Virus record (IMG/VR): IMGVR_UViG_3300030331_002683
Location: 1 to 29,188 of that record
Source of the DNA: a virus
Length of the DNA: 29,188 bases
Reading direction: 5' to 3' (one strand)
Of the stretch, positions 4,921 through 8,253 are shown in pieces (the first letter of the stretch is position 1; the number at the start of each line of letters is the position of its first letter). The notes under the pieces were generated by a model. That model was given only the letters and a program-made list of their open reading frames with translations, was not told where the DNA came from and did not search any database. The position numbers were made by a program, and so were the translations under genes.

Positions 4921-5162
4921 CAACAAAAGATATATTTGAGGAAGCATTTCCTCAATACACTCAAATAGGTGGGAATCACTATACTAAATTTCCTATTCAA
5001 CCATATGAGTTTATTTCTAAAAACAATCTTTCGTTTTTTCAAGGCAACGTAATTAAATACGTTTGTCGTTATCAACGAAAGGGAGGTGTTGAAGATCTAA
5101 AAAAGATAGTGCACTATTGTCAATTAGAAATGTTGAAAATGAAAGATGCAAAGAAAACTTAA
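4917..5162 (+). CDS. DUF3310 family protein
   Basis: An 81-residue protein with the DUF3310 pattern: IGGNHYTKFPIQPYEFI (residues 17-33), then FFQGNVIKYVCRYQRKGGVEDLKKIVHY. This small family is widespread in phages and is sometimes called a nucleotide-kinase-like or SaV-like domain, but its activity is not established as far as I know. The ATG overlaps the helicase stop (ATGA), and its own 3' end overlaps the methyltransferase start by 17 nt, so it is translationally embedded in the replication operon. A role in nucleotide metabolism or host takeover is only a guess from context. Confidence 0.88.
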   Translation: MTTKDIFEEAFPQYTQIGGNHYTKFPIQPYEFISKNNLSFFQGNVIKYVCRYQRKGGVEDLKKIVHYCQLEMLKMKDAKKT

Positions 5163-6312
5163 AGTATTAGATTTATTTTCTGGCATAGGAGGATTTGCAT
5201 TAGGTTTAGACTCTACAGGAATATTTGAGACTGTAAAATTTGTAGAGAAAGATAAATACTGTAAGAAAGTTTTACAAAAAAACTTTCCTAACATACCGAT
5301 TGAGGAGGATATAAAAGATGTTAAAGGAAAAGAAGGAGACGCAGATGTCATTGTGGGAGGATTCCCCTGCCAACCAATGTCAGTCGCAGGTAAAAGAAAA
5401 GGAACAGATGACGACCGCTATCTCTGGCCAGAAATGTTTAGACTCATTAGGGAGATCAAACCCCAATTCATTATTGGGGAGAATGTGCAAGGAATTATTA
5501 ACATCCAAAACGGCATGGTACTCAGACAGGTGCAAGACGACTTGGAAAGTGAAGGTTTCGAAGTCCAATGTTTTCTTATTCCAGCTTCAGGCATCGGTGC
5601 TTGGCACCAGAGGTACAGAGTCTGGATTGTGGGCCACTCCGAATACAATGGATCACTTACCTCCAAGATCAAAAGAAGGAACACTGAAACTGCAACAGGG
5701 ACACAGGAAGGGACGAACACGACCGGCGAACCTGAGAGAACAAGTGGATCCAGAAACAATGAGGATGTATCCGACACCGAGATCATCGGGACAAGAGAAT
5801 CCAGAAACATTGATCAAGAGAAAGGGAGTCAAAGCAGCAGCTCAACACAATCTAACAGCAGCAGTACAGATGTATCCAACACCGACAGTGGGTTGCGAGG
5901 AAGGGGGAGAACAATCGAGCAGAGTGGAGAGAACAAAGTCTGGCGGTTTTATTCTGAGGAAGAAGAACAAACCCGACTCGACATTTGGAGCGAAACTATC
6001 GGACGCAATGTTGTATCTGGAGAAAAAGAAATTATTCTACAGTCCAACAACGAACGACAGCAAGAATCTAACACTTCCAAAGAGTCAGAAGGACAGACAT
6101 TCAGTGGTGGGGGACATGTTACAAATGAAGCAAAACAAACCTGGTGGCAAGTTGAATCCAACCTTTGTGGAATTCCTAATGGGATTTCCTATGAATTGGA
6201 CAAAGACAGAGCCAACAGAATCAAGACTCTCGGTAACGCAATCGTCCCACAGATTGCAAGAGAGTTCGGACTTGCAATTAAAAAAGTTTTATCCAACTCC
6301 AAGAGCTCATGA
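5146..6312 (+). CDS. C5-cytosine DNA methyltransferase
   Basis: A 388-residue Dcm-type enzyme using S-adenosylmethionine to make 5-methylcytosine. Motif I is DLFSGIGG (9-16), motif IV GGFPCQPMSVAGKRKG with catalytic Cys75, motif VI GENVQG (111-116), motif VIII QRYRVWIV (about 155-162) and motif X NRIKTLGNAIVPQIA near the C-terminus. Between VIII and X, where the target-recognition domain should lie, the protein is Ser/Thr/Glu/Asn-rich and low in complexity. Over that stretch another frame encodes a more conserved-looking protein (next entry), so this part may be shaped by the overlap. It probably protects phage DNA against host restriction. No cognate restriction enzyme is visible. The start lies inside the DUF3310 gene. 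Confidence 0.93.
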   Translation: MQRKLKVLDLFSGIGGFALGLDSTGIFETVKFVEKDKYCKKVLQKNFPNIPIEEDIKDVKGKEGDADVIVGGFPCQPMSVAGKRKGTDDDRYLWPEMFRLIREIKPQFIIGENVQGIINIQNGMVLRQVQDDLESEGFEVQCFLIPASGIGAWHQRYRVWIVGHSEYNGSLTSKIKRRNTETATGTQEGTNTTGEPERTSGSRNNEDVSDTEIIGTRESRNIDQEKGSQSSSSTQSNSSSTDVSNTDSGLRGRGRTIEQSGENKVWRFYSEEEEQTRLDIWSETIGRNVVSGEKEIILQSNNERQQESNTSKESEGQTFSGGGHVTNEAKQTWWQVESNLCGIPNGISYELDKDRANRIKTLGNAIVPQIAREFGLAIKKVLSNSKSS

Positions 6313-6394
6313 ACCAGGTAGAACCACAAAAGGTTATGGAAGAGGTTTAGCAGAACTTATGGAAGGTAAAGAACAAAAGGATCCTAAAAAATGA
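5318..6394 (+). CDS. Long overlapping gene nested in the methyltransferase frame
   Basis: A 358-residue reading frame shifted by one base, of which about 995 nt overlap the methyltransferase. It is unlikely to be a shadow. It has its own GAGGAGG ribosome site about 10 nt before ATG 5318 (a second candidate start is 5345). Its stop overlaps the DNA polymerase start as ATGA. Its sequence also matches, from memory, a family found next to or overlapping phage and Bacteroidetes C5-methyltransferases: MTTAISGQKCL (31-41), WYSDRCKTTWKVKVSKSN (67-84), GLWATPNTMDHLPPRS (103-118), and LNPTFVEFLMGFPMNW (279-294). The tag [WFM][AY]xTP recurs (WATP 105, MYPTP 150 and 185, FYPTP near 334). Its function is unknown; a partner or modulator of the methyltransferase is the natural guess. 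Confidence 0.75.
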   Translation: MLKEKKETQMSLWEDSPANQCQSQVKEKEQMTTAISGQKCLDSLGRSNPNSLLGRMCKELLTSKTAWYSDRCKTTWKVKVSKSNVFLFQLQASVLGTRGTESGLWATPNTMDHLPPRSKEGTLKLQQGHRKGRTRPANLREQVDPETMRMYPTPRSSGQENPETLIKRKGVKAAAQHNLTAAVQMYPTPTVGCEEGGEQSSRVERTKSGGFILRKKNKPDSTFGAKLSDAMLYLEKKKLFYSPTTNDSKNLTLPKSQKDRHSVVGDMLQMKQNKPGGKLNPTFVEFLMGFPMNWTKTEPTESRLSVTQSSHRLQESSDLQLKKFYPTPRAHEPGRTTKGYGRGLAELMEGKEQKDPKK

Positions 6395-8253
6395 TCATAC
6401 CAAAGTTTGAAGCACAAACAGAATGGATTGAACCAGAAGAATATCCAGATCTAAGATCATACGATGAGATTGCAATTGACTTAGAGACAAGAGATCCTGA
6501 ACTTAAAACAAGAGGATCTGGTTCTGTTATTGGTTTAGGTGAGGTTGTTGGTATCGCTGTAGCTGTGCCTGGAAGAAAATTTTATTTTCCTATTGCTCAT
6601 GGCTCTGGACCAAACATGGACAAGAAAAAAACTTTAGAATGGTTTAAAGATATTTGTGCGTCACCCGCTACGAAAATATTTCATAACGCTATGTATGACG
6701 TATGTTGGATACGAAAATTAGGTATAAAAATCAATGGTTTAGTGGTTGATACCATGATAGCAGCATCTTTGATTGATGAGAACAGATTTAAATATGATTT
6801 AAATAGTTTATCTTGGGACTATCTTGGTTTTGGTAAATCAGAAATAGCTTTAGTTGAAGCTGCAAAGTCAAGAGGACTAGATCCAAAAGCAGATCTATGG
6901 CAACTGCCCGCTATGGAAGTTGGAGCATACGCAGAGAAAGATGCAGAGTTAACTTTAGAACTCTGGCAAATATTTAAAAAAGAAATTATTCATCAAGACG
7001 TAGAATCTATTTTTAATCTCGAGACAGATCTATTTCCTTGTTTGGTCGACATGCGTTTTTTAGGAGTGAGAGTAGATGTAGAAAACGCTCATAGATTAAA
7101 GAAAGACCTAGAGTACCAAGAAAAATTGTTACTGTCAGAAATAAAAAAAGAAAGTAACATAGAAGTTCAAATATGGGCAGCAAGGTCAATTGCCAAAGTT
7201 TTCGACAAATTAAATTTACCTTACGAACGAACTGTAAAAACACAAGCACCTTCCTTTACAAAAAATTTTTTACAAGAGCATCCTCATCCTGTTGTAAAAC
7301 AAATAGCTAAAGCTAGAGAGATAAACAAAGCTCACACTACATTTATTGATACCATAATTAAATATGAACATAAAGACAGAATACACGCAGAGATAAATCA
7401 AATTAGATCTGATGCGGGTGGAACTGTTACTGGTAGATTTAGTTACAACAATCCAAACCTACAGCAACTACCGGCAAGGAACAAGGATCTAGGACCCATG
7501 ATTAGATCTTTGTTTTTACCAGAAGAAGGATGTCACTGGGGTTGCTTTGATTATAGTCAACAAGAACCAAGACTAGTTGTACACTATGCAGGTCTACATA
7601 AGTTTCCAACAGTATACGATGTTATCGATGCATATGAAAATGATTCATCAACAGACTTCCATCAAACTGTAGCTGACATGGCTAAGATTCCTAGGTCACA
7701 AGCAAAGACAATTAATCTAGGTTTATTTTACGGAATGGGTAAAGCTAAGTTACAAGCAGAGTTAGGAGTTTCAAAAGATAAAGCAGCAGAATTGTTTGAC
7801 CAATACCATGCGAAGGTTCCCTTTGTTAAACAGTTAATGAACTCGGCCTCTAATCGTGCACAAGAACGTGGACAGATCCGTACACTTCTTGGTCGGTTAT
7901 GCCGATTTCATTTATGGGAACCAAATAGTTTTGGTATGCACAAAGCCATGCTACATGAAGATGCACTCAGGGAACACGGACCTGGGATAAGAAGAGCATA
8001 TACATACAAAGCATTAAATAAATTAATTCAAGGTAGTGCAGCTGATATGACTAAAAAAGCAATGTTGGATTTATATAAAGAAGGAATATTAGCACATATA
8101 CAAATACATGATGAGTTAGATCTATCTGTTGAATCTGATGCACAGGCAAAAAAGATAATCGAAATTATGGAGAATGCGGTTAATCTAGAAGTCCCCAATA
8201 AAGTTGATTATGAAACAGGAAAAACTTGGGGAGATATTTATGATAAGGATTAA
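6391..8253 (+). CDS. polA: DNA polymerase, family A, with 3'-5' exonuclease
   Basis: A 620-residue replicative-type polymerase of the Pol I family, without a 5'-3' exonuclease domain. The proofreading domain has IDLET (D30, E32), HNAMYD (N99, D103) and YAEKD (Y180, D184). The polymerase domain has motif A DYSQQEPR (387-394, where most Pol I have DYSQIELR), the O-helix RSQAKTINLGLFYG (435-448), and motif C IHDE (572-575). The position equal to E. coli Phe762 is Leu443, with Lys439 and Tyr447 matching Lys758 and Tyr766. AAAGGATCC precedes the ATG, which overlaps the nested gene's stop by 4 nt. It should copy the phage genome with the nearby primase and helicase. Confidence 0.96.
   Translation: MIIPKFEAQTEWIEPEEYPDLRSYDEIAIDLETRDPELKTRGSGSVIGLGEVVGIAVAVPGRKFYFPIAHGSGPNMDKKKTLEWFKDICASPATKIFHNAMYDVCWIRKLGIKINGLVVDTMIAASLIDENRFKYDLNSLSWDYLGFGKSEIALVEAAKSRGLDPKADLWQLPAMEVGAYAEKDAELTLELWQIFKKEIIHQDVESIFNLETDLFPCLVDMRFLGVRVDVENAHRLKKDLEYQEKLLLSEIKKESNIEVQIWAARSIAKVFDKLNLPYERTVKTQAPSFTKNFLQEHPHPVVKQIAKAREINKAHTTFIDTIIKYEHKDRIHAEINQIRSDAGGTVTGRFSYNNPNLQQLPARNKDLGPMIRSLFLPEEGCHWGCFDYSQQEPRLVVHYAGLHKFPTVYDVIDAYENDSSTDFHQTVADMAKIPRSQAKTINLGLFYGMGKAKLQAELGVSKDKAAELFDQYHAKVPFVKQLMNSASNRAQERGQIRTLLGRLCRFHLWEPNSFGMHKAMLHEDALREHGPGIRRAYTYKALNKLIQGSAADMTKKAMLDLYKEGILAHIQIHDELDLSVESDAQAKKIIEIMENAVNLEVPNKVDYETGKTWGDIYDKD

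Follow-up and report, generated by a model that had tools for sequence, protein, structure and literature searches.

Overlapping phage genes that probably encode the catalytic and recognition chains of one split C5-cytosine DNA methyltransferase

Multispecific phage methyltransferases carry tandem recognition units of about 40 residues each between motifs VIII and IX, and the two genes of M.EcoHK31I reportedly overlap in different frames. In M.HhaI and M.HaeIII, the variable region and motif IX are located in the small domain, which is responsible for the sequence-specific contacts (PMC3404938). The same source describes two enzymes divided between chains: in M.EcoHK31I (YGGCCR) the larger chain carries motifs I-VIII and X, with motif IX alone on the smaller polypeptide, and M.AquI (CYCGRG) is split within the variable region, its smaller chain holding part of that region and motif IX (PMC3404938). 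A two-chain split with motif IX apart is already known. Bacillus phages gain protection from many restriction systems through single-chain enzymes with tandem recognition domains (PMC12707154, PMC8936443), and few prokaryotic long overlaps with both frames under selection are fully established (PMC9927249). In the open-licence PubMed Central literature, we found no account of a family-wide kilobase overlap, of a variable second-frame cassette array, or of single-chain, EcoHK31I-like and AquI-like arrangements in one homologous family.

The stretch of DNA analyzed here (the window, a virus record of 29,188 bases) carries primase, helicase, exonuclease, terminase and portal genes, and its source is therefore most likely a tailed phage. 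Two long genes on the same strand overlap in it, as an earlier note on this DNA had described: alpha (388 aa) and beta (358 aa, in frame +1 relative to alpha). The ribosome-binding site and the polymerase junction that the note had assigned to beta were both located, the latter at 6391-6394, where ATGA serves as the beta stop and as the start of a family-A DNA polymerase ORF (Table 1). The beta ribosome-binding site is spelled by alpha codons of a conserved E-[EG]-D-I, and therefore GAAGGAG/GAGGAGG may arise readily in C5-methyltransferase genes.

Table 1. Features of the alpha/beta locus in window coordinates
Feature	Position	Strand	Basis
Alpha: predicted C5-cytosine methyltransferase catalytic chain, motifs I-VIII and X	5146..6312	+	PF00145, TIGR00675 and M.HhaI matches
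Alpha motif I (DLFSGIGG)	5170..5193	+	Position from sequence
GAGGAGG, candidate beta ribosome-binding site, 9 nt upstream of beta ATG	5302..5308	+	Made of alpha codons
Beta: putative recognition chain, frame +1 (N-terminal block, PTP cassettes, motif IX, one more cassette)	5318..6394	+	phrog_1008, open frame in relatives, alignment
Dual-coding overlap, 995 nt	5318..6312	+	ORF map, shuffles, codon positions
Alpha motif IV (GGFPCQP, catalytic Cys)	5356..5376	+	Aligned to M.HhaI
Beta N-terminal block (SGQKC...WKVKVSKSNV...FQLQASVLGT), +1 frame of alpha motifs VI-VIII	5423..5608	+	Both frames constrained, pos3/pos1 1.10
Alpha motif VI (ENV)	5479..5490	+	Aligned to M.HhaI
Alpha motif VIII (QRYRVW)	5608..5625	+	Aligned to M.HhaI
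Beta cassette 1 (LWATPNTMDHLPPRS...)	5627..5764	+	Alignment, cassette typing
Beta cassette 2 (MYPTPRSSGQ...)	5765..5869	+	Alignment, cassette typing
Beta cassette 3 (MYPTPTVGCEEGG...)	5870..6031	+	Alignment, cassette typing
Beta cassette 4 (LFYSPTTNDSKN...)	6032..6142	+	Alignment; same cassette kind in single-chain L197
Motif IX in beta frame (GGKLNPTFVEFLMGFPMNWT)	6143..6202	+	Alignment; pattern missing from alpha frame in 51/51
Alpha motif X (NRIKTLGNAIVPQ)	6214..6252	+	Alpha-type codon pattern resumes, pos3/pos1 1.82
Cassette-like beta tail past motif IX, extending beyond alpha stop	6284..6391	+	Alignment
Family-A DNA polymerase ORF	6391..8253	+	Own ATG overlaps beta stop

The two ORFs are very probably the two chains of one split C5-cytosine DNA methyltransferase with the layout of M.EcoHK31I and a multi-cassette recognition subunit. 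We favor this two-chain reading because both frames are under selection, beta and not alpha holds motif IX along with the cassettes, single-chain relatives contain the same kinds of parts, one of these, L244, was modeled with the full fold, and M.EcoHK31I provides a precedent. Alpha would bind AdoMet and catalyze methylation through motifs I-VIII and X. Beta, whose expression we infer, would be translated from its own ribosome-binding site within alpha and would contribute motif IX and tandem recognition cassettes at the position of the target-recognition domain of a monomeric enzyme, with the low-complexity alpha residues 176-345 acting as a read-through linker held open to reach motif X. The presumed heterodimer would mark several cytosine sites of phage DNA, perhaps one DNA target per cassette, and the marking would protect the phage DNA from host restriction. 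Based on the literature on M.HhaI and M.HaeIII, M.EcoHK31I, M.AquI and the Bacillus phages together with the anatomy of the locus, alpha and beta would most likely be two parts of a single multispecific methyltransferase whose catalytic and recognition functions are encoded by different genes that overlap.

Profile searches with alpha returned PF00145 (E 7.7e-54) and TIGR00675 (E 6.4e-48), M.HhaI aligned with its residues 5-162, and C5-cytosine methylation is its predicted activity. Motifs I (DLFSGIGG), IV (PCQ), VI (ENV), VIII and X are all present in this chain. Motif IX together with a recognition domain between motifs VIII and X was absent from alpha and was found in one chain only in the single-chain enzymes L197, L244 and L245; the motif IX pattern occurred in the alpha frame of none of 51 genes (50 complete relatives and the window). 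The earlier observation that the methyltransferase frame is low in complexity where its target-recognition domain should be was borne out, as S, T, N, E, Q, G and R made up 76% of alpha residues 176-328 compared with 38% of residues 1-175.

The best family match of beta was phrog_1008 (E 1.3e-24; E 1.6e-74 for a Paenibacillus phage beta), whose name, 'DNA methyltransferase', is silent on a second-frame subunit, and its matches were confined to phage families. All of the blocks quoted in the earlier note are present in beta: CLDSLG and WKVKVSKSNV belong to its N-terminal block, GLWATPNT marks the first cassette, and LNPTFVEFLMGFP spans residues 279-291. The note had attributed them to stand-alone proteins beside C5-methyltransferases. 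This attribution did not hold, and such overlaps are not rare within the beta-bearing family: most relatives overlap the methyltransferase, and in a genome scan with the beta profile, 77 of 80 loci, all selected by the beta motif, had the beta match in the +1 frame of an ORF matching the alpha or C5-methyltransferase profile.

Alignment of 37 betas showed an N-terminal block followed by a variable run of cassettes and then by GG[KR]LNPxFVEFLMG[FY]PMNWT, which resembles motif IX of C5-methyltransferases. The M.HhaI entry reads HPRECARVMGYPDSYKVH at motif IX, with H instead of T in its printed stretch, and the M.HhaI motif as a whole is KLTPRECARVMGYPDSYKVH. In the same alignment the cassettes start like '[WYFL]PTP' and finish roughly 'L..AV', and the window beta has four of them before motif IX and one after it. 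Altogether, 605 cassettes in 201 distinct arrays were 15-75 aa long (median about 40 aa), numbered 1-7 per array, and fell into 118 types, the cluster T00 (132 members) being chained by single linkage. Certain betas differed in their flanking parts. In several of L015, L022, L026, L027, L033, L039 and L268, the tail past motif IX was followed by a domain of about 110 aa with '..TIDHWLRSDHCFAYPT..', a domain type that in L268 is located inside the cassette array. An N-terminal block with '..FSETWPRWGM..' or 'YSETLPTSGMTRSG..' replaced the SGQKC type in L246, L252, L197 and L331 (mycobacteriophage GigiOuiOui).

Three loci have these parts in a single chain. In L197 (Pelosinus) a single frame runs from motifs I-VIII through cassettes to motif IX and then motif X, and L244 (70% identical over its best segment) and L245, both from IMG/VR, show the same order. 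The part of L197 after motif VIII matched 225 of 249 split-type beta ORFs, including that of the window (E 2.5e-13), and the corresponding parts of L244 and L245 matched 184 and 137 of the 249. Thus, some enzymes read these cassette kinds in the frame of the catalytic half, and others read the same kinds in a different frame. The +1 frame of L197, L244, L245 and the phage record L329 retains a short one-cassette ORF beside the single-chain enzyme, as though beta had moved frame partly.

These single-chain enzymes bear on a reading in which beta overprints the methyltransferase as a protein of separate function, for instance in regulation or anti-restriction, and stays outside the enzyme. Searches of Pfam, NCBIfam and PADLOC at the chosen cut-offs gave beta no match and hence no functional name, and the beta N-terminal block was not seen in the main frame of the single-chain enzymes, as such a protein would suggest. 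We nevertheless regard this reading as very unlikely, since motif IX, missing from alpha, sits in beta, and in single-chain relatives the enzyme itself includes cassettes of this kind together with motif IX. What the earlier note called a conserved partner is better understood as the half that the methyltransferase lacks, with motif IX and the recognition region, than as a separate protein.

The AlphaFold2 model of L244 reached a pLDDT of 77.4 and a pTM of 0.79, with values near 90 in the motif IX region and largely below 50 in the cassettes. In a VIA second look against solved structures, M.HhaI was the top match (Z 24.9, 251 residues, 3.2 A), residues 1-353 of the model superposing on residues 12-325 of the M.HhaI chain; C5-methyltransferases also ranked first in Foldseek, with a high rmsd over the full length. 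With the cassettes themselves at such low pLDDT values, their proposed recognition role rests on position and variability. Counting against the split-enzyme reading are these low cassette values, the poor AlphaFold2 model of the window beta (33 alignment rows, pLDDT 47.5, pTM 0.21), and the PDB sequence search, which gave no match with the window beta alone or with the beta profile. Against the reading as drawn here, furthermore, the recognition domain of M.EcoHK31I was predicted in the larger chain (PMC3404938). By that analogy the enzyme could be split with the cassettes as spacers or protein-protein modules and with recognition in the middle region of alpha, an arrangement that we consider unlikely, as alpha residues 176-328 are of low complexity and evolve by the beta pattern (described below) and the single-chain enzymes place the cassettes between motifs VIII and IX. 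The suggestion in the earlier note that the second frame bears on target specificity is supported.

To examine whether both frames are coding, IMG/VR relatives were sought with alpha residues 1-57 alone, which lie outside the overlap, because relatives must not be chosen by the frame under test. The best 80 of 566 were used; 30 of their alphas reach a contig end and 50 are complete, some are contigs already present in an earlier search, and the set that is non-redundant at 90% alpha identity, with L115 and L158 excluded, numbers 36. The earlier note had named a lack of homologues, or stops in relatives, as grounds for rejecting the second frame. Homologues were found, and in 48 of the 50 complete relatives, chosen without reference to beta, the +1 frame ran without a stop from the start of beta to the end of motif IX (49 of 51 when the window is counted). 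The other two were L115, whose alpha ends at 135 aa, and L158, which has 217 aa open and a motif unmatched by the pattern. Synonymous shuffling of alpha left beta open in only 1 of 9,800 shuffles (49 genes); in the window, 500 such shuffles placed a mean of 10.7 and a minimum of 5 stops in the beta frame over the overlap. Conversely, alpha stayed open in 0 of 4,900 beta-synonymous shuffles (64 of 4,900 for the cassette part only). The third frame was open for 200 aa in none of the 51 genes.

In this arrangement, position 3 of an alpha codon is position 2 of a beta codon, and position 1 of an alpha codon is position 3 of a beta codon. Ratios of differences at alpha positions 3 and 1 (pos3/pos1) were calculated on 18 disjoint nearest pairs with 95% bootstrap intervals; a first version with 194 non-independent pairs was not relied on. 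The ratio was 2.14 (1.80-2.80) in alpha residues 1-57, 1.90 in 58-110, 1.10 in 111-175, 0.68 (0.55-0.79) in 176-328 and 0.62 (0.48-0.78) in 329-345, and it returned to 1.82 (1.36-2.43) at motif X. The fastest-changing codon position thus shifts from the alpha third to the beta third across residues 176-345 and reverts at motif X, indicating that alpha dominates both ends, that both frames are constrained at motifs VI-VIII, and that beta dominates the middle. Column-permutation and codon-resampling nulls were also tried and were rejected as confounded by shared descent; under codon resampling the third frame scored high too (z 62.6 versus 111.9 for beta), so the case rests on the shuffles and on the codon positions of the 18 pairs. 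The results confirmed that both frames are under selection, in line with the dual coding that the earlier note had proposed. The first 50 or so residues of beta mostly shadow alpha: they follow largely from its motif IV codons, and the ratio is still 1.90 in residues 58-110. That the entire second frame is such a shadow of conserved alpha codons, with no gene in it, is refuted by the shuffles, the open frames in relatives, the reversal of codon positions and the closed third frame, and we assign it practically no probability.

The frames of motifs IX and X relative to motifs I-VIII were sorted (ARRANGEMENTS) in the 80 genome loci and in 80 IMG/VR loci found with L197. Motif IX in +1 with motif X in frame 0 was the prevailing arrangement (55 genome and 60 IMG/VR loci). 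Both motifs were in +1 in 1 genome and 8 IMG/VR loci, motif IX was in +1 with X not found in 8 and 1, both were in frame 0 in 1 and 2, IX was in frame 0 with X in +2 in 2 and 1, no IX was recognized by pattern in 7 and 8, and there was no alpha match in 6 and 0, respectively. Several assignments need qualification: L221 has IX and X in +1 by the first pattern and no IX by the second, L168 and L300 are identical in sequence, and L234 and L243 gave no beta profile match with the motif visible in another frame. L202, L216 and L276 show a further frame permutation, with motif IX in the frame of alpha and motif X in +2. The loci L183-L187 are five copies in one chromosome (uncultured Roseovarius genome OX638333.1), possibly repeated prophages.

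Nine more phage and plasmid records were judged by eye, seven from alpha-frame matches of L206 and two (H171 and H191) from beta-frame matches. In six of the nine (L324, L327, L328, L330, L331 and L332), a different frame (+2 in L331) contained PTP-like cassettes together with a block resembling motif IX, and the annotated frame of L329 held both IX and X, with one cassette in +1. The remaining records, L325 and L326, whose annotated neighbors are restriction enzymes of the HaeIII and NotI families, were ordinary monomers with canonical motif IX; read by eye as informal negative controls, they showed no second frame of the cassette/IX type.

The distribution of motif X also bears on recoding, in which one full chain would arise by a ribosomal shift from the alpha to the beta frame past motif VIII, possibly followed by a return ahead of motif X. 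The single-chain relatives show that one chain is workable in principle, and in the 8 IMG/VR loci and 1 genome locus with motif X in the beta frame a single shift would suffice. However, an internal beta ATG is conserved at the homologous position in 75 of 79 loci and an SD-like sequence in 72 of 79 (both partly dictated by the alpha codons there), far upstream of useful shift sites, and the beta N-terminal block is beta-constrained over alpha residues 111-175 yet would be missing from any shifted product. We therefore consider recoding quite unlikely.

Compared with the described systems, the two-chain enzyme proposed here resembles M.EcoHK31I in having motifs I-VIII and X on alpha and motif IX on the smaller chain beta. 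It differs in that the recognition domain of M.EcoHK31I is predicted in the larger chain, whereas here the alpha middle is of low complexity, the codon pattern is that of beta, and a variable multi-cassette array lies in beta. The methyltransferase is, moreover, an orphan found in phages and scattered genomes, and it is likened to M.EcoHK31I by layout. The M.AquI arrangement recurs in L168/L300, L246, L247, L252, L257, L261, L265 and L314, where motifs IX and X are together on beta; the window differs from M.AquI in having motif X in alpha, and it has a long overlap and a cassette array. The Bacillus phage enzymes SPR, phi3T, rho11 and H2 likewise have several tandem recognition units (putative ones here), but on a single chain in one frame, whereas the units here lie mostly in a second frame and on a second chain. 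Both frames are also open in the DNA methylase gene of phage ShiLan; its out-of-frame HNH endonuclease, however, is a selfish homing element and not a functional half of the enzyme (PMC11855218).

Cassette types were common to marine phages and bacterial genomes. Among 802 cassette pairs with at least 90% DNA identity over at least 90% of the length, 252 occupied a different index counted from the array start, and only 2 linked loci with less than 70% identity in alpha I-VIII (none below 60%); no duplicates were found within one array at an 80% cut. These numbers support the gain, loss and reordering of cassettes among relatives, as read from sequence comparison, and long-range transfer between distant backbones only weakly. 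It is an evenly balanced question whether phage C5-methyltransferases make widespread use of second-frame mix-and-match recognition, with interchangeable dual-frame cassettes of about 30-50 residues gained, lost and reordered inside the catalytic gene and with the same halves also occurring as single chains or in an AquI-like split.

By tblastn, the window beta matched 54 of 50,697 phage records, 48 of them from Paenibacillus phages, and an Aneurinibacillus beta (L206) matched 75 phage records and 4 of 72,556 plasmids. With the alpha frame of L206 as the query, alpha-like matches were found in 517 plasmid and 1,413 phage records. A phrog_1008 search was positive within two orders, in 3 of 15 genomes of the first and 2 of 196 of the second (the seeding genome being counted in each case), and in 0 of 14 control genomes; this patchy occurrence fits phage and prophage genes. 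One contig titled Candidatus Lokiarchaeota (L188) has a Pelagiphage-like beta C-terminus adjoining masked Ns and is perhaps mis-binned phage DNA. The split arrangement recurs in phages and in genomes of many phyla, and, of the kilobase-scale same-strand overlaps in phages of prokaryotes, this may be one of the most broadly conserved.

Annotation often captures one half of this arrangement, which is spread over many bacterial groups: of three Paenibacillus phage records, that of Tadhana lists both genes and those of HB10c2 and Xenia one each. Phage records annotated with one 'DNA methylase' can thereby conceal the half expected to set specificity. Ranging from a single chain to two chains split in different ways, the loci offer a natural series for studying the division of a gene by frame change. 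If individual methylated motifs can be assigned to cassettes, the anti-restriction specificity of a phage could be inferred from its sequence, and if mix-and-match recognition does operate in the second frame, moving one dual-frame cassette would let phages retune which restriction systems they evade.
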